NCBI GenBank assembly: GCA_903813345.2
Contig: CAIIXF020000124.1
Location: 1 to 64,000, forward strand
DNA from: Owenia fusiformis
Taxonomy: Eukaryota > Annelida > Polychaeta > Sabellida > Oweniidae
Direction of reading: 5' to 3'
DNA: 64,000 nucleotides
This document shows positions 1,264 to 64,000 of this stretch, piece by piece; the stretch's first letter is position 1; each line of letters opens with the position of its first letter. Made by a program: the position numbers and the translations under genes. Below the pieces are notes generated by a model. It was given only the letters and a program-made list of their open reading frames with translations, ran no database searches and had not been told where the DNA came from.

Positions 1264-41451
<40,188 letters not shown>

Positions 41452-44605: not shown

Positions 44606-45628
44606 TCAAGTTTCTACCTTGGTTACGACCGTGCTACCATTCGTACTACTGTTGTTGCCATTGGCTGATTTTCCAATGGGACGTTTGACTCCGCACACTC
44701 CGAATATCTTGTAGTAAAAGTTTTTGTAACCCTCTCTGAACGCTCTATTGCTGATTCCATAAACGAAACAGTTCACGCCACTGGCGTTTCCATGCATCAA
44801 TTGGACTACGATGACGTACACAACAACTGGTAAAACATCGGCGGAGTCGAAGAGAATCACCGCCACAAAAGGCGAATTCATGACGAGAAAAATCAAAAAG
44901 ACCAAAAACAGGACTTTTGCTAGTTTAATCTCTTTGTCCATCTTTTTATCACCTCCCTTTCCAACGCTTGCGATTTTCTTTTTTGTCTGATAGACCTTCC
45001 AGAATATAAGTGCGTTGCAGATGGCCACCGTGACGAGAGGGATGAATACCCCAGCGAGGAAGCTTAAGCTGAAGGCGCGATGTTCCATGCGGTCCCAAAC
45101 ACAGCCGATCATCTTCCGATCGTACGTGTACCTGCCCCAGCCGCCCAAAACAGCGAAATTAAGCCACATGCTGTACACCCAGATAATAATATTGATGATG
45201 ATCGTGTTGCGCTTACTGAAAATAGTAGGGTAGACGCTACTTCTGCAAATGCAAACATAACGATTGATGGCGATGAACGCCACGCAGGCGAGAGACGCCA
45301 GACACGCACTGAGGCACACGAACGCCAATACGCCGCAGAATTCTTTCCGAATAACGAACCAACGTTCGCCAGTGAATATAGCCACGACAAAGAAGATGTT
45401 AACGGGCCCCGCGAGTATGACATCACATATAGCCAAGTTAATAACGAAATAGTTAGCCGTTGTCCTTAGGCTTTTTGTTACAGCGACGGCTCCTATGATG
45501 AATATGTTTCCTACTGTGCCTATGGTGATAATAATGAGCATGATGACGATCAGGAAAGATGTCTCTATGGGGTGTGTCTCTAAATAGTGGACATAGGTCA
45601 CCTCTGGTTCGGATGTTGTGTTCGCCAT
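44606..45628 (-). CDS. Rhodopsin-family G-protein-coupled receptor, single exon, NRY type
   Basis: A complete 340-residue frame without introns. The start has an N-glycosylation site (NTT at 3-5) and no signal peptide. Seven hydrophobic segments are visible. Class A markers are N41 in TM1, D69 in NLAICD (TM2), W90, C98 paired with C176 for the extracellular disulfide, NRY at 122-124 in place of DRY, P197 in TM5, P253 in TM6 with no CWxP, and NCFVY at 286-290 in place of NPxxY. NRY followed by VCIC recalls melatonin receptors (NRY...CYIC) and the related Moody/GPR84-type orphans. The ligand is not predictable. The tail is rich in Asn/Ser/Thr/Lys. Intronless receptors of this kind are common in expanded invertebrate families. 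It lies 500 bp from a recent foldback insertion. Confidence 0.9.
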   Translation of the reverse strand: MANTTSEPEVTYVHYLETHPIETSFLIVIMLIIITIGTVGNIFIIGAVAVTKSLRTTANYFVINLAICDVILAGPVNIFFVVAIFTGERWFVIRKEFCGVLAFVCLSACLASLACVAFIAINRYVCICRSSVYPTIFSKRNTIIINIIIWVYSMWLNFAVLGGWGRYTYDRKMIGCVWDRMEHRAFSLSFLAGVFIPLVTVAICNALIFWKVYQTKKKIASVGKGGDKKMDKEIKLAKVLFLVFLIFLVMNSPFVAVILFDSADVLPVVVYVIVVQLMHGNASGVNCFVYGISNRAFREGYKNFYYKIFGVCGVKRPIGKSANGNNSSTNGSTVVTKVET

Positions 45629-55552: not shown

Positions 55553-57962
55553 TTATTTGGCAATCTTAGTCTTCCTGGAGTACAAGTCTTTAACTTTAAA
55601 ATCATGTACTTTCCCAATGGGTATGCCATCCTTGTGCCAGCAGTCAACTCTGTGGCCAAAATATTCCTCTTGTTTCTCTAGAGCACCCATCTTGGATCTA
55701 TTTTGCAGCTCCACGGTCTGGTATTCGTTGAAGCCCTCAAATTTGAGTTGTCCAAGTTTCTCATCGTTCTGATCCATGGTCAGTGAAGCCTCGACTGTCA
55801 TTGCTTGACCTTGAATATGATAGAGGTGGTTATTAATACATGGAAATCAGTTATAGATCAAAAGACGTAAATACATCTTTGACGTCCAAGGTGTTTTAAT
55901 AAACAATGAAGTTGGAGCACCTGGAGCATTGTGAATCAAGATGGTGCAAATAATAGTTTTCTTATATTGTTCTTTTTAAGACCGGTGTTAAAGGGTAGGA
56001 GGTCCTATCAAATTATGGTCCTACTCTCCATTGATTTATATGGTGACCTCTTTGTGCTCTTTCCCTTATTATCTTATATACAATCAGGGCCAGTAAGGGC
56101 CTTTAAAAAGGGGGACCATAATCCCCGGGGGACCATAATTTCTTTCACACCGGTATGGGCCTCTTAAAGATGGACTATTATCCCCCAATTTCTTAACACC
56201 CCATTTTATAAGTTTGGCAACCATTACTGTATAAGTGGTATTTAATCCGAGTGGTTAATTTTCCGAATGGTCAAATTTCATCATTTTCCTAATTTTAATT
56301 TTCCTAATGACAAGAAACCTCCCATTGGATAACATTATAAAGACAATATTTCCGACATTTAATTTTCCGAACCTGGCAAAAATTAGGAAATAGGCAAATT
56401 AAATGATTAGGCAAAATTACCACTTATACAGTATTCCTTTTGGATCACTTATCAACGCTTGTTTAAGTTTGACGATTTAAAAATCACCAAAGTCATGAAA
56501 GATTCGAACTATTGTATTTAAGGAACAAAATTAAGGATTTGATATGCTATGGCATGAAAAATTCCGATTGCCAAACTTATGGAGGGGAGTGTACTCTGAA
56601 TAGATATTAACGTGTCATTACCAACAATGCCACCGGCAGGCCAGAGAGATTCATCAAGTTTGGTGACCAATACGTCTAGATGGTTGTTGAAGCGTGCGAT
56701 CACAATCGTAGCCAAATGACTGATATGTACTGCCATTCTGTATCTGTCTTGCTTTAAGATGCGTACAGCAACGGGGACTTTTTCATTTCCGAACTATAAC
56801 AACCAAATCAAGATGTTTTCATGCAAGTCGTGAGCCAGGAAAAAAGTGTTACATAAAGATGCTTGGTGAAAAAGGCGTGGCAGTAAAGGTGAAAAGTCAA
56901 AATTGGTCATTATCTCCTAATATTTTATCATTGTTCAGCTTGGTTATTATATACAATACAATATACAATATGCCTCGGATTCACAATACAAGGAGATGAA
57001 AATTAAATATCATATATATTTTCTATGAAGAAATTCTTTTGTCCATTCAATTTTGGGGGATTTTTGGACTGTTAAAATTGCACCCTGTTCATGAAAGCAC
57101 TAATTAATCTTCTTCGTAAGAAGCAGACCTGTGTAAAATAACGGTTACTCAAATAATATGCTCGAAGATTACCTTAGCGATGTAATTCCTCTGGAACGCC
57201 GGTCCCCATCTTTCCACTTTCCCCCCAATATTCATGTAATGCGTTTCTGCCCCTACGTGAACCCAGAAGTTCCCCATACGTATGACGGCCTCCCCAAGAT
57301 AATACGCATGTCCGGATCCAGGTCGTGACTCTATTTCCTCTGAGACCATTTTGGCATTTACAACCAAATCTGTGGAATAAAATAGTGCTGAATAAGTTGT
57401 TTTTAATGTGTTTATCTTTATTTTTAAAGGGAAATGAATTAACTCATGATAGAAAGAGAGCGATAGAGAATCTGAGCTCAAAGTATAAGACCAAATTAAC
57501 AATAGGAAGTTAACATTTCCAGTGTTTTCACCCGCTCTGCTGACTCAAAGTACAACACAGTTAGACTAACTGTGCCCACTTGCACATTTATTATTTCAAT
57601 GCCGTTTAACGATCATGAGGAATGTTCTTACATCTGAAAGGAGAAACCCTCGTATGTCGTGTTAATAGATGCACTGTGTAAAAGTACCAACGTCAACAAC
57701 GTATCAATACAAATTTCTTGATGTTGAAAAATCTTTTAGTCAACTGGCGTCATAGTAACAAATTTCAAAACAGTTGGACTTTAGAAATTCTTAACTCCAC
57801 GAAGTGTCTGTTATGATTTTCAGATCTTACTGTCCAACATAAACTTACTTTTTGAGGGCACAGAGAGGATTTGTATGACCTTTCCAGCGGGGGCCGTGAA
57901 GTCGAAACATACTGGTTTATCTACCCCCTTAACGTTGATCATCACGTGAGGATCTCCAGCCA
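55553..57962 (-). CDS. Exons 11-14: inter-alpha-trypsin inhibitor heavy-chain C-terminal domain
   Basis: The translation VAGDPHVMINVKGVDKPVCF then APAGKVIQILS and NLVVNAKMV follows the ITIH C-terminal pattern GDPHF...LCF...PG.VL.L..D...L.VNG. VPVAVRILKQDRY corresponds to its VTVSILKDRYKV-type strand. The final exon has LGQLKFEGFNEYQTV and HRVDCWHKDG, matching LGQF and the late VCW. In ITIH proteins this region precedes the hyaluronan-linking Asp-Pro-His-Phe cleavage site. Here the DPH sequence occurs as DPHV at the domain start, so hyaluronan linkage is possible but unproven. Confidence 0.85.
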
Positions 57963-60900
57963 CTGAAAATTGATATTGAAGATTGATATTTGTTTGTGAT
58001 TAAGAGATACATTTAACGCATTGTAATTATTTGTTTTGTCATGTCAATCATTGAATGTTTGTCCAATGACGGAAACAGCAAAGGTTATAATGTTCTAATC
58101 AAAAGGAATAAGTATAATTTGCCCATTATTTGATTGTTATTTAGGTTAGCCTATCACTGGTGGACTGGATTATTACTAAGTGGGCTCATTAAGATTTTTT
58201 CATTTCCTTTTTGAAATATGAATCCCGAATTTTGAACACATAGAAATATTTAGAAGTATAGTCCACATTTTACATTTTTCAAGGTTTCTAAACGTCATAC
58301 ATTAATATTAAACGTTTTCCATTACCGTCTCCGCCGCCTCCGTCGTCACCAGAGCAATCACATGGGGTATGAGCAGTCCATGTGCCGTCCGATTGACACT
58401 GAATACTCTCGCTAGTATCTTCTGTCCCCTGGATAGTGCAGTTCTCATGGCATGTGTATGTGATTGATTCAGGATAGTTGTAGTTAGTCCCCGTAATATT
58501 AGCGTTCGCGTCGCTTGGTGGTGTACCACAATGGGGTGCTGCGCAATCCTCGTCTTCGTTTCCGTCCCCGTCGTCATCTTTGAGAATATTTAATGATAAT
58601 ATAAATAGTGCCAACAAGTTATCTAAGATTTTAGAATGGAAAAAGTGTTTGGAGTTTTACAATTTATGAATAAATGCTGCGAAAATTATGATAAGCTAAT
58701 CTGGTATTTTTGGGTAGACGTACCTGCAGGATCGGCTGCACAATTTTCCTCGTCTACCCTTCCGTCACAGTCATTATCTGTGCCATCGCCTATCACACTC
58801 GCCGTCACCACGCAGGGCTAACAATAAAATAATACTAATGATTAAATCACTTATGTTCCTCATTCTCAGATTGGCCATGACTCGGAAGTAAAGCCCAGTA
58901 CACACCGATGGGGAGAAGGAGGGGAGGTGTAACAATTATGATTACAAAACAGAAGAAAGCCAAATATACAATCGGTACATCGGTAATCTTCCAACTAATA
59001 AGGCAAAATCCCAGCGAGTCCCAGCGAGTCCCATCGAGTCCCACGAGGTCCCATGGAACCTCGTTGACTTTGCCCCATGCATGGAGTCCCATCGAGTCCC
59101 ACCGTTCCCCATCGAGATAGAGTCCGGCCCCTCAAAAGTTTAGAAAGTTTTGCCACCACTGACATTTTGATCCAACAAGTCAACCGATACGTCGCATGGG
59201 CAAAATGTGTCTCACGATGCGCAATGGAAATAATGAACGGATCATCAGATCTTGACGAAGCTTGGTCGGACTCCGTGGGACTTCGCGACCATGAAGTAGC
59301 CTACCTTGGAAATCGATGGGGCATCGTGAGGCAAAGCCCCGTGGCGTACTACAAGGTTCGACGATCACGCTAAGTGTATGGAGATAACATTGCCCCATTA
59401 GTGTATGTTGAACTTAAGAAGCCATATTTCACGGTTTAAGAATGTGACGTTTTGAAATGATACAAATATAATCTTATAGAGAGAAGTGTATGGTTACTGT
59501 AGTTGTACTCACTGCGTTAGATAACTCGTTCCTCATTCCTAGGGGAAAGCCATAGGATTCCGCTAACTGCTTTCCATACAGGTAACCAGAGAATTGGCCA
59601 ATACTGTCAGTGTTAGAAAGTGTATGGGCACCTGGAAATTAAAAGAACGTGTAAACTGTACATGTAAAGTGACGAAAGGGTGTCAATGATATGTGATTCA
59701 CATAGCCAGGCCTGATATTTGAAAATTCAGCAGATCTTGTAAAATATATAATTTGTGGATTGTTTGATCTTTCCCTAGAACTCGGTCTTCGCTTAAGGAA
59801 GGAACAATCCACTTGTAATCTGCTTCACATTGAGTCAAGTGCTCATATGGATTCTTTCAATACACAACAAATATTTGAACAATAAATTCCAAAATTGAAA
59901 TTCTACCAGAAACGTCTACAACTGATAAAACCACTACCTTCCACTACAGGTATCCAAGTCCCAACATAATTTGTTCCAGGTATACTGTTCCAAGGGTAAT
60001 CGGTGACATTAAACGCCTCGTTGTCATGTACTAGTGTATCTTCGCGCCCACTTTCAACAACTGAAATAGCAGATAAAGTCATGACTCAGGGGTACATTAC
60101 CTAAATATTTGATTTATATAAATATCCATTTATTTTCCTTTATCAGTTTGTTTTAACATAAAAACCAACTAAAGTAGAATTTATTTCAAAATAATTAAGT
60201 TAACTTGGGTCGTAAGATCTTAATTAACATGATCCATGATGATTCAAAACAGCTTGAAATTGAAAATCAAACATGTAAAGTCAACATGTACAGCAGTTAT
60301 CTTGTGTGTCTTACCGATTGCCAAATAGTGTTCGTAGGTTCCGGAAGCCGCTGGTGGGCTGATAACGGTGTAGGCAGTTTTCCATTGGACTGTTGGGACT
60401 AGCATTATCATAGCTGGATCAGCCGCTTCGGTCGTTCCTGTTGTCTAAAGGGCAACAAAATAACACAGTATATTCTAGTGCAGTAAAACCTGTCTAATCC
60501 GAACGCCATTGGAAGCATCTAGCTAAAATTGTTCGGATGAGGATATGTGTACAGGGTGTCAAATAAATATGTCCTCCCCTATTATACCTATTATTATATT
60601 ATGCCTAAGATGTTTGTTCCAATACAGGATATACATTGAGACATTTATACTTACAGACTAATTGTAAAATTGTAACGCAAATTAAATTGATAACTACAAT
60701 TAACGTGATACAAACACTGACTAACAAATTTTCAATACCCCGAATGAATCCATCGTGAAACGCTACCTGAAGTTGACGTAATGAAGTTGAGAACACCATA
60801 ATGATACGCTATTTGCTGTTGCCCATTATCTAGTAATGTTCCAGTGAGTATATCCCTGGCTGAGTGTATTTACCTGACTGAGTATAAACTTGAAAGCACT

Positions 60901-63900
60901 GATGGGTTTGTCCGATATTATGCTTACGTAGGTCGCCGCTGGTACCGTTATCTAAAAAAAAGGTTTGTACTTACAAAACTAGCCATGAATAAAATAGACA
61001 TTTTCTAACAATCATGTTATATCAAGATGAAATTACTTTGGTGTTTATTGTAGCCTGATATCGTGGTTTAGCGATTGAATTAAATAAGATATTAATTTGT
61101 TTTGATAATGATAACATCTTACATCTGCAAAATCTGCCTTATTGGTTAGTGTTCCATTACTTGAGAAGTCACTCGTCCCCGTCACCCAATAGTTCACTGC
61201 ATCTTCTCCTGCTGTAAGCTAAAACGTTAAAATGTTATTGAGTCTGGAAATGGACCAGGGAATTCAAAAGGACATGGTATGGTGCGGGAATCTGAGAATA
61301 GGGCAGGGAACTTAAAACGACAGGGTCTGGTATGGCAATCTGGGAATAGGGCAGGGAACCTAAAATGTCCAGATGTATGGTATGGCAATTTGGGAATAGG
61401 GCAGGGAACTTAAAACGACAGGGTCTGGTATGGCAATCTGGGAATAGGGCAGGGAACCTAAAATGTCCAGGTGTATGGTATGGCAATTTGGGAATAGGGC
61501 AGGGATGTTTAAACGACAGGGCCTGGTATGGTAATCTGGGAAAAGGGCAGGGAACTTAAAACGACAGGGTCCGGTATGGCAATCTGGGAATAGGGCGGGG
61601 AACCTTAAATGTCCAGGTGTATGATATGGCGATCTGGGAATAAGGCAGGCAACTTAAAACGACAGGATCTGGCATGGCAATCTGGAAATAGGGCAGGAGA
61701 CCTACACGAACGAGATGTGGTATAGCAATCTGGGAACAGGGCATGAGACCTTATTAAAGGTCCAGATGCGGTAAGGCAATCTGGGAATTGGGCAGGGAAC
61801 CTAAAGGACCAGGTCTGGTATGGCAATCTATGATTAGGGCAAGGGATTAAAAGGACAAGATGTGGTATACCAATCTGGGGATAAGACAGGGAACTCAAAA
61901 GGACTAGGTATGGTATGGTAATCTGGAAATAGGGCGGGTAAACTGGGAATAGGACAGGGAGCTTAAAATGACTGACTAGGTATAATTTGGCAAGTGACTT
62001 TAGACAGTCATAATTATGTTTGATCATTAGTATTCTCTCGCCTTACTATGATTTGACAATATTCCCTGTTCAAATAATACGTTTTCCTCCAAGTAGAGTT
62101 CCTGGAATAATAAAACTATCAAACAGTGTCGCCGACTTGAAGAACCCCCATTCTTTTCTACATTTTGAAAAGGCCAATTATCTTTTGGATACTATGGTGG
62201 TGATGGAATAATTTGTAAATGTTAATAGCTCATACTCAGCTACCAACAGAAATAAAAGAAGACGAGAGCATTGGTCATCATTATCGATTCGTGTTATTTT
62301 GTTACCTTTGTATAGTCTATCATTTTATCCAATTCCTGGACCACAAAAATGGTATTACTGGACCAGAGGTTTCTTACCCTTATATAATGTCCTCTCGTGG
62401 TGGTACCCGGTGTGGGGGTTGTGTAAAATTCTTTTCCCCATTGCGTAATTGGAACCAACATCTCCTCTAGATGGTCAGCAGTATTGCTCGATGCTCCGTC
62501 TGTAACCCTGGTCTTCTTATTTCCAGAGAAAACAGCGATGGGTTGATCGGAATATATTTCAGTTCCCGAAAAATCGGATTCACTTGAGGCTTGGAACGCC
62601 TCCAGGCGATCTAGCGTTAAAGAGATGTTTGTCCCGGCAGCGTGAGTTGTACCATCAAAGGTGATTTCTTGGGTAGATTTGATAACAACATTGGTTGAGT
62701 CAAGCGTCCCTGCTATTCCAAACAAACTGGTCCTTCTCTCAGGAGTCCACGTAGTCGTGATGTACTCAGTGCCAAGTGCTTCAGTTGGTATGATCAATGA
62801 CCCATCGACACTTAGGCCTTCCATGTTGACAATGTATACACTTATTTCATCATCGGCGGTGATGAGTAGCCCTTTGTCAGCAACTTTCTCTGTTTCAGTA
62901 AGGCGTATACTTGTATCAACCTCGACCTAAAAACAAAGGAAAAAATCGCATAACAATTTTTGTCACAAAAAGAGTCCCACGATCGATTTTTCTGTATTTT
63001 TAACTTGATGATTTTAAAGCGTCAATTGCCAAAAGCAAGTGTGATAAACCGATGTTGGTTTAGTGTAAATCTTATGAGCAAAAATAGTCGGAATGGGATT
63101 ATACAAAATAAAAAAATGTTAAAGCATACATTTTTGAATGTGAAGTAACTCTTGAATATACGAAGAAATTGGTGGATTTTGAAAACATATGGGGTTGTGT
63201 TTAGAAAACTGCAAAAATGACTACAAATCATAAGAAAAATTGTTGTCTTGCTTCAAGACACTGTGCTATCTACTCTAACAATTAACTTGTGTCTCATGGG
63301 ATTGGGCAAGACTAGAAAAAATATTTCACAAATATAACAATAAAATCGCTTGGCGATATTTATGGGAACTCCATTACAAATGAATTATCAATCAATTTAT
63401 TTATCCTCCTTGTCAGGAATACTTGCGCACATTGATTTAATCTTGGTACCATGTTAGTTTCATTACTTACCGTTTGAAACTGCTCATCCATTACTGTATA
63501 TGATCCGCTAAACCCGATGGCTTCGCAAGAAATTGATACGTTCACTGGTGTAGACTTTCTAGAGGTAACAAATAAGCGAATTCTGCCATCAGCTCCTGTT
63601 GGATCAGTCGCTCTCAGACTGTTTTCCAAAAACATTAGTATGAACTCAGTCCCCGAGTTGTCAACCCCACCTTAAATGTAAACGGTTAAAGCATTTGAGC
63701 TCCATTGCATTCATCGTTCGATAGATATTAGAAATTTCTTTTTAATTTTCTGAATTTTCTGAATTTGTCGTTATTACTTAGATGCGCTGAGACTAGCTCT
63801 GGATAAAGCGTTTACAGAATCTCTCTAGGTGCAATTTAGATGTTCTGCCTTGAATAGTAGATAATGTATTTTAATTTCATATGAGTTCGTGGGTGTAGGG

Positions 63901-64000
63901 TGGATATTTTGTTTTTTCTTGTTTGTGTGAAGATAGCTTAAGATTTCAAGGAATTCGAAATAAAAAAGTTTCTAAATATGCACTACCCTCCGTAAGTTCG
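55553..64000 (-). CDS. IgGFc-binding-type / sushi / ITIH C-terminal multidomain protein, 5'-partial, 14 exons
   Basis: Exons in coding order: 64000-63987 (cut by the window end), 63670-63471, 62926-62306, 61218-61123, 60951-60874, 60444-60315, 60060-59938, 59631-59513, 58817-58724, 58577-58326, 57962-57849, 57369-57173, 56793-56622 and 55809-55553. All junctions are GT-AG and the phases sum to one open frame of about 821 residues. Domain order is the IgGFc-binding N-terminal type (about residues 1-460), an Asp-rich MopE-like metal-binding motif, one sushi/CCP domain, and the inter-alpha-trypsin inhibitor heavy-chain C-terminal domain (about 575-820), ending KIAK-TAA. Even Cys spacing and these modules indicate an extracellular or matrix protein; the signal peptide would lie beyond the window. 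ITIH proteins normally have VIT and VWA before the C-terminal domain, and neither is visible here. The AATAAA that overlaps the stop codon might serve as its polyadenylation signal. Confidence 0.88.
56228..56432. mobile_element. 205-bp TA-flanked MITE between exons 13 and 14
   Basis: The ends actgtataagtggtattt and aattaccacttatacagt are mirrored and flanked by TA, as for Tc1/mariner MITEs. Internal sequence repeats aattttccgaa-type blocks. It lies in the intron between 56622 and 55809. Confidence 0.65.
58326..58817 (-). CDS. Exons 9-10: metal-binding-type Asp motif and sushi domain
   Basis: Exon 58817-58724 encodes IGDGTDNDCDGRVDEENC, which fits the MopE-type putative metal-binding motif and an EF-hand-like DxDxDGxxD loop. 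Exon 58577-58326 starts with a second acidic run (DDDGDGNEDED). It then encodes one sushi/CCP module: CGTPP, ITYTCHENC, IQCQSDGTWTAHTPC, and a Gly/Asp linker. Sushi modules mediate protein-protein contacts in complement and matrix proteins. The intron between them contains a short GC-rich run of gagtcccatc-type decamers (59009-59114 lies in the preceding intron). Confidence 0.88.
59513..64000 (-). CDS. Exons 1-8 of the multidomain gene: IgGFc-binding N-terminal-type domain
   Basis: The segment opens with DNSGTEFILMFLENS, close to the GTEF.V.F.EN start of this domain family. It continues with VTSRKSTPVNVSIS, SDQPIAVFSGNKKTR, HLEEMLVPITQWGKEFYT and FVVQELDKMI. Later come SIISDKPISAFKF, MIMLVPTVQWKTAYTV and NYVGTWIPVVE. 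It ends with GAHTLSNTDSIGQFSGYLYG, the GxHTL...GxLYG closing signature. Exon 62926-62306 alone holds 207 codons. In other animals the domain occurs in FCGBP-like and many marine invertebrate secreted proteins, often linked with mucosal or adhesive functions. Ligands are not predictable. Confidence 0.88.
61245..61985 (+). repeat. About 50-bp minisatellite in the IgGFc-domain intron
   Basis: Some fourteen units of 48-51 bp with the core tctgggaatagggcagggaa, followed by cttaaaacgacagggtctgg or a ctaaaatgtccaggtgt variant. Two unit types alternate in the first half, suggesting a higher-order dimer. It begins about 25 bp upstream, in gene direction, of the exon at 61218-61123. Confidence 0.85.

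Follow-up and report, generated by a model that had tools for sequence, protein, structure and literature searches.

An IgGFc-binding head joined to an ITIH-type tail: a predicted secreted protein of the annelid Owenia fusiformis with a candidate cleavable pro-domain

Introduction

Why would a protein with the head of a mucus protein end in the C-terminal domain of the inter-alpha-trypsin inhibitor (ITI) heavy chains (ITIH), and what could such a domain do there? The question is raised by a gene on the minus strand of a 64,000-nucleotide stretch of the genome of Owenia fusiformis (assembly GCA_903813345.2, contig CAIIXF020000124.1, positions 1 to 64,000; C124:1-64000 below), which we call the window. 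The predicted product contains, in this order, a signal peptide, an IgGFc-binding domain, two Asp-rich loops, one sushi module and a tail of 242 residues. By its predicted domains, this is a new combination of known domains. Among the titles and abstract openings covered in literature searches on the architecture and its parts, for which there were many more matches, we found no description of the architecture, and its absence from print is unproven.

Two reports provide the relevant background. In the ITI heavy chains, chondroitin sulfate becomes attached to the new C terminus through an ester bond, and upon this linkage the corresponding 239 residues of HC1 and 244 residues of HC2 are removed as a pro-domain (PMC7170535). 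In VWD domains, GDPH motifs self-cut between Asp and Pro, and in ITIH3, 5 and 6 a GDPH motif separates strands one and two of a domain for which a VWD-like topology is predicted (PMC10880436). Our best explanation, to which we give a probability of roughly 0.6, is that the window gene encodes a secreted matrix or mucus protein with a cleavable ITIH-type pro-domain as its tail.

Homology of the tail to the ITIH C-terminal domain

The tail runs from Pro594 to the end of the protein and directly follows Asp593 of a GDPH motif, and thus has the Asp-Pro start and the roughly 240 remaining residues of an ITIH pro-domain. Since the Pfam model of the ITIH C-terminal domain (PF06668) misses this tail, homology was shown instead through an ITIH tail of the same genome. 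The reference ITIH gene lies near 5.73 Mb on C3; its joined tail matches PF06668 with an E value of 1.7e-32, and VWA and VIT matches are found upstream (L008; L numbers denote pieces of DNA that were read). Four further tails, belonging to GDPH-tailed proteins other than ITIH on C2, C4 and C6, were also compared, and all tails were rebuilt from DNA, the one designated C4b without its last exon.

BLASTP aligned the window tail with the ITIH tail over residues 5-238 at 47.4 bits (E 3.8e-11), while the best of 100 shuffles reached 23.1 bits, and hhalign scored the pair at 54.5 (E 9.8e-8) in an alignment of 220 columns. When the comparison was made with a five-tail profile, the hhalign score was 53.8 (E 1.2e-7, 89 columns), a value that none of 100 shuffles attained (maximum 24.0), and the four non-ITIH tails alone still gave 41.3 (E 1.2e-5). 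The open reading frame (ORF) of exon 11, where the tail begins, was picked by a single-query phmmer search with the ITIH tail (E 1.2e-5), and it was the only ORF matched by the five-tail profile built without the window (2.3e-6) when the window stretch was searched together with 24 pieces read around other IgGFc loci.

The introns point in the same direction. In all four MAFFT modes, the first and last introns of the tail share their column and their phase (1) with those of the ITIH tail, and the last one, before exon 14, is also common in column and phase to the C2, C4 and C6 tails; in the C4b tail, no acceptor was identified for it. The tail has two cysteines (608 and 807), both of which align with ITIH cysteines. 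With two VWD domains of this genome, hhalign gave only 16.0 and 12.5 (E 0.11 and 0.39), and Pfam likewise found no VWD match in the tail. When the tail was used as a query against the genome, only the tail itself and a second copy of the gene on C2 were matched (E ≤ 0.001), and a sequence search of the PDB returned nothing meaningful (best E 1.2). Taken as alignments, shuffles and intron positions, these comparisons establish that the tail is homologous to the C-terminal domain of a bona fide ITIH. The original prediction had named this domain from the sequence, and the assignment holds through BLASTP, hhalign and the introns, although not through the PF06668 match that had been expected.

Gene structure and domain order

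Judged by its reading frame and splice sites, the gene is real and complete. It has 14 exons, 13 of them inside the window (63670-55553) and the first one outside (64745-64691), and its coding sequence of 2508 nt specifies 835 amino acids followed by one stop, without internal stops. All 13 introns are GT-AG and their phases are consistent. The original prediction had proposed 14 exons in a single phase-consistent frame within the window: the frame was recovered, as were the borders at 59513/58817, 58724 and 57962 when the exons were joined, and the count is correct for the gene but not for its placement. It had also pointed to the DNA upstream of 64000, and the 750 bases beyond the window (L001) indeed contain exon 1, which by eye encodes a signal peptide, MDYRFVLVFALMVLPPAFG, in line with the secreted protein that had been suggested.

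Exon 2 (63471-63670; GT-AG, phase 1, kept in the second copy) would encode the residues after the signal peptide, which form the N-terminal part of the IgGFc-type region; by eye, a similar stretch also precedes the IgGFc-binding domain of the L015 locus. The domain itself (PF17517) is spread over exon 3 (62306-62926), which contains its first half with the match starting at 62806, exons 4 to 7 (61123-61218, 60874-60951, 60315-60444 and 59938-60060), placed by exon joining and Pfam, and exon 8 (59513-59631), in which the match stops at residue 454 (59573). It covers residues 126-454 and positions 1-297 of the 297 in the profile, with 177.3 bits against a cut-off of 25.6 (E 5.4e-52).

Two acidic loops, DGTDNDCDGRVDEENC and DDDGDGNEDEDC, separate this domain from the sushi module. 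The first is encoded by exon 9 (58724-58817) as IGDGTDNDCDGRVDEENC, a MopE-like motif without a Pfam call, while exon 10 (58326-58577) combines the second with the single sushi (PF00084, 58530-58354, residues 522-580; 26.8 bits against a cut-off of 20.7) and a Gly/Asp linker. Thus, both of the domain searches proposed for the head, PF17517 and PF00084, gave matches above the cut-off. The protein contains the pattern DGxDNDCDGxxDE, but PF11617 (Cu-binding_MopE) matched neither the protein at E ≤ 1 nor a 54-residue loop piece at E ≤ 10, and a genome search with this profile was silent here and in control genomes too; the MopE-like loop of the original prediction stays a motif. The tail is encoded by exon 11 (57849-57962), which starts it with VAGDPHV and places GDPH at 57957-57946 and the predicted cut between Asp593 and Pro594, exon 12 (57173-57369), exon 13 (56622-56793), terminating in GGIV-G, and exon 14 (55553-55809), which contributes the end (DCWHKDG...VHDFKVKDL) and the stop.

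By Pfam, the 835 residues contain neither VWD, C8 and TIL, with which an FCGBP-type protein would continue in VWD-C8-TIL-E assemblies, nor the VIT and VWA of an ITIH heavy chain. The VIT and VWA domains had been reported as not visible, and the genome's own ITIH VWA and VIT sequences agree, as neither has a matching ORF anywhere from 50 to 74 kb; the ITIH VWA query, which matched four ORFs in L008/L009, gave no match in the window stretch.

The protein is comparable to two known systems. It resembles FCGBP in its IgGFc_binding head, in having a GDPH-containing domain later in the chain and in being secreted (PMC10880436), and differs from it in the absence of VWD, C8 and TIL by Pfam, in carrying one ITIH-type domain at the very end, in the acidic loops and one sushi in between, and in having no cysteine near GDPH; FCGBP retains its first strand through a disulfide (PMC10880436). 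The original prediction had set the protein apart from FCGBP, which is right as regards VWD and TIL, but the contrast is smaller than it seemed, given that the FCGBP VWD cleaves at GDPH and that the ITIH domain is predicted to share the VWD topology (PMC10880436). To the ITIH heavy chains, the likeness is a tail that is homologous over its length, with Asp-Pro-His at its start and with two cysteine and two intron positions in common, whereas VIT and VWA are replaced by the IgGFc domain, the loops and the sushi.

A second copy and purifying selection

A second copy of the gene is found at about C2:18476355-18487100, with the exon lengths and GT-AG sites kept. The two copies differ by 29 substitutions in the 2508 nt, 27 of them synonymous and 2 nonsynonymous, over 566 synonymous and 1942 nonsynonymous sites, and the gene evolves under purifying selection. 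Divided by part, the synonymous and nonsynonymous counts are 12 and 2 for residues 1-474, 5 and 0 for the loops and sushi, and 10 and 0 for the tail. This conservation supports the predicted frame and exons across the head, the loops and sushi, and the tail, although it does not by itself prove a single joint transcript.

Five large blocks that include exons and introns together align between the window and C2 at 91-97% identity, and C124:10001-12000 matches C2:18536352-18538299 in the opposite sense at 88%. C124 therefore seems to lie alongside C2. Alleles are accordingly the likeliest reading of the two copies, which would make C124 a haplotype left unmerged, and recent segmental duplication is a less likely one. 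Given that C124 resembles an unmerged second haplotype of C2:18.48-18.54 Mb, gene counts in the assembly may be inflated. Intron 3 of the gene contains a 48-bp minisatellite of about 14 copies (window 61256-61935), and its counterpart on C2, which spans roughly positions 2388-3650 of L002, is nearly twice as long, so that the two copies differ in length here.

Related heads and tails in the genome

In the 498 Mb of the genome searched, there are at least 36 IgGFc matches, which we grouped into 27 loci: the window, the copy on C2 and 25 others. The latter were read in 24 pieces, between 4.5 and 9.9 kb long, each with at least 2.6 kb of downstream DNA. Loop 1 is present in seven of the 24 (L015, L016, L018, L021, L023, L028 and L035), and loop 2 was recognized by pattern in six of these seven, with a variant in L028; many of the pieces without loops carry a common Cys-rich module. 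The seven loop genes share with the window gene the IgGFc head and a DGxDNDCDxxIDE loop, but show no GDPH tail in the DNA read, and their ends, read by eye, are Thr-rich and mucin-like, joined by a membrane helix in L021 and L028, except in L023, which ends in EGF repeats. No ITIH-type tail was found at any of the 25 other loci within the DNA read, from which an exon farther downstream would escape. Moreover, when a six-tail profile was run against the ORFs of the window stretch and of these 24 pieces, it matched nothing but the four tail exons of the window gene itself.

In a tree built from 11 IgGFc domains, namely that of the window and those of all but L017 and L018 among the first 12 pieces, without the 12 later ones (so that the loop genes L018, L028 and L035 are absent), the window head groups with the four loop genes included, with a support of 87/92, which is below the strict mark of the tool. 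The domain nearest to the window head is that of L015, at 36% identity. As the loop genes group with the window head and yet end differently, the head and loops look like a local family with exchanged C-terminal ends, of which the window gene would be the member with a sushi and an ITIH-type tail. In L021, the Asp-loop exon is repeated four times on the minus strand (1289-1688) with a period of 117 bp and near-identical flanks; by eye, an in-frame TAG is seen between copies, and the copies may be alternative exons or recent duplicates.

Among the matches listed, at least 78 for VWD and at least 36 for IgGFc, no VWD match lies within about 26 kb of an IgGFc match; thus, VWD and TIL are not the visible local norm after IgGFc in this genome. 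A separate region, G000:C1:55420711-55486822, contains VWD matches in intronless open frames of 8849, 7135, 1952 and 1088 codons. The genome also gave three matches to the erythrocruorin-linker family of annelids (best E 5e-7) and no match to COX1.

There are at least 13 PF06668 matches in the genome, and six of the places were read (L003, L012, L004/L013, L005/L014, L006 and L007/L010). L003 is an ITIH tail, and the later exons of L012 closely match it, with no DPH exon found in the piece of L012 that was read. The other four are the non-ITIH tails, in which a Cys stands directly before GDPH (ICGDPHIS, VCGDPHIR); no ITIH-like VWA or VIT ORF was found 3 to 9 kb upstream of them, a span that a more distant exon would escape. 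Like the window protein, these GDPH-tailed proteins on C2, C4 and C6 have an ITI_HC_C-type domain without visible ITIH-like VIT or VWA upstream, and they differ from it in the Cys before GDPH, in their heads and in a shorter C-terminal end. On these comparisons, the ITIH C-terminal domain seems to be mobile in this lineage, which makes the fusion in the window less strange and more instructive.

Two groups of tail-bearing genes deserve a record of their own. A family in which ICGDPHISQTIKG is found together with an ITI_HC_C-type tail that follows a Cys-rich stretch occurs at C2 2.15-2.28 Mb, C4 13.8-14.2 Mb, C6 38.28 Mb and on C476; no ITIH-like VWA or VIT ORF was seen near the three copies read (L004/L013, L006 and L007/L010), and the one head piece tried gave no Pfam match. 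At C3:5707000-5748000, there are tandem ITIH genes, with NDPH in the tail where it was read (L003) and VWA ORFs in L008 and L009.

Proposed function of the tail and alternative explanations

The functional reading as a whole is predicted from sequence. The product would be a secreted extracellular-matrix or mucus protein, the mature part of which would comprise the IgGFc-type head, the two acidic loops of metal-binding type and the sushi, whereas the last 242 residues would be an ITIH-type pro-domain. During secretion, the tail would fold and the Asp593-Pro594 bond in GDPH would break by itself, as in GDPH-containing VWD domains, a cleavage that this analogy makes probable. The cut tail might then be shed, since the first predicted strand lacks a nearby cysteine that could keep the pieces joined, the last one before GDPH being residue 580, ahead of the Gly/Asp linker; we put the odds of shedding at about even. 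Asp593, now activated and C-terminal, would either be hydrolysed or, as happens in the ITIH heavy chains, be transferred to the hydroxyl of a sugar to form an ester, which would tie the head to a glycan. This transfer is the weakest step and, by analogy with the heavy chains, is conceivable but doubtful. In the original prediction, the tail had been part of the mature adhesive protein, a view that we do not share, as its counterpart in HC1 and HC2 is a removed pro-domain of closely similar length (239 and 244 residues, compared with 242 here).

Several observations weigh against a cleavable ITIH-type pro-domain. PF06668 matched neither the protein at E ≤ 1 nor pieces of the tail at E ≤ 10, and a genome search with this profile found no match at the window locus or at the C2 copy; the identity between the window tail and the ITIH tail is 21%. 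The middle intron of the tail differs from that of ITIH in place and phase, the first intron of the C2, C4, C6 and C4b tails is two columns off, although in the same phase, and the ITIH tail of L003 has NDPH, not GDPH. Furthermore, the ITIH tail itself scores 14.9 and 12.1 with the same two VWD domains, which is no match either, so that this weak fold control shows an ITIH-like sequence only and not different folds. As for the chemistry, GDPH cleavage in ITIH3, 5 and 6 is a proposal only, and in MUC2 the motif was uncleaved in the host cells used for the structure (PMC10880436). The lack of a Pfam match and the low identity would also suit a tail that is an unrelated beta-sandwich, resembling ITIH only around DPH and a Cys, but the 220-column alignment with its shuffle controls, the selection of the exon 11 ORF both by the single query and by the window-free profile, and the two introns whose column and phase agree with those of ITIH make this very improbable.

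A more serious competitor, unlikely in our judgement, would have the tail act like the VWD of FCGBP: nicked at GDPH or intact, it would stay on as a stable folded end and make protein-protein or mucus contacts, without a glycan bond. Of the 13 D assemblies of FCGBP, 11 contain GDPH, and there the domain gains stability by cleavage while its pieces stay joined through a disulfide (PMC10880436); in the four non-ITIH tails the Cys before GDPH could similarly hold the pieces together. The window protein, however, offers no cysteine for this purpose near the first strand, has no C8 or TIL by Pfam, and carries a tail that matches ITIH but neither of the two VWD domains compared. It is also improbable, and considerably more so, that two adjacent genes were misjoined, one with the IgGFc domain, loops and sushi ending after exon 10 and an ITIH-like one beginning at about exon 11. 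The junction between these exons is predicted from DNA alone, the exon 10 frame could continue beyond the donor until it meets a stop inside intron 10, and on C2 this intron contains one ATTAAA. Nevertheless, in the window copy the intron between sushi and tail is a GT-AG intron of 363 bp with no polyadenylation-like hexamer, the exon 11 frame has no ATG between its last stop and GDPH, and the copy on another contig has the same exons, phases and order. The cleavable ITIH-type pro-domain is thus the explanation that we prefer.

Other features of the window

Elsewhere in the window, an intact frame of 340 amino acids on the minus strand (44606-45628) resembles, by eye, a rhodopsin-type receptor. 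On the plus strand, an acidic frame (21629-23002) has an end that by eye resembles the C terminus of the CHD3/4/5 remodellers.

Implications

In limpet adhesion, VWD proteins similar to FCGBP have been described, and ITIH is not mentioned in the accessible portion of that report (PMC7333891). The window protein joins two GDPH stories, that of the mucus protein FCGBP and that of ITIH, which had been linked by predicted fold (PMC10880436). With a candidate cleavable tail of ITIH type on the head of a mucus protein, the tail may be a portable attachment device. In its strongest form, this idea makes the ITIH C-terminal domain a self-conjugation module that can be moved between proteins: placed on an FCGBP-type head, it would cut itself off at Asp-Pro and leave the head covalently ester-linked to a glycan. 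We hold this form only tentatively and consider it somewhat unlikely.

In the ITI heavy chains, it is hard to separate the pro-domain's own machinery for cleavage and Asp-ester formation from the VIT-VWA head. The same tail on an unrelated head, and under strong selection, is a ready-made test of whether the pro-domain is sufficient. If the window protein cuts itself and becomes linked to a sugar, the tail would be sufficient and the chemistry would be wider than ITI; mucus or matrix proteins beyond the ITI heavy chains would then be anchored to sugar chains in the same chemical way.

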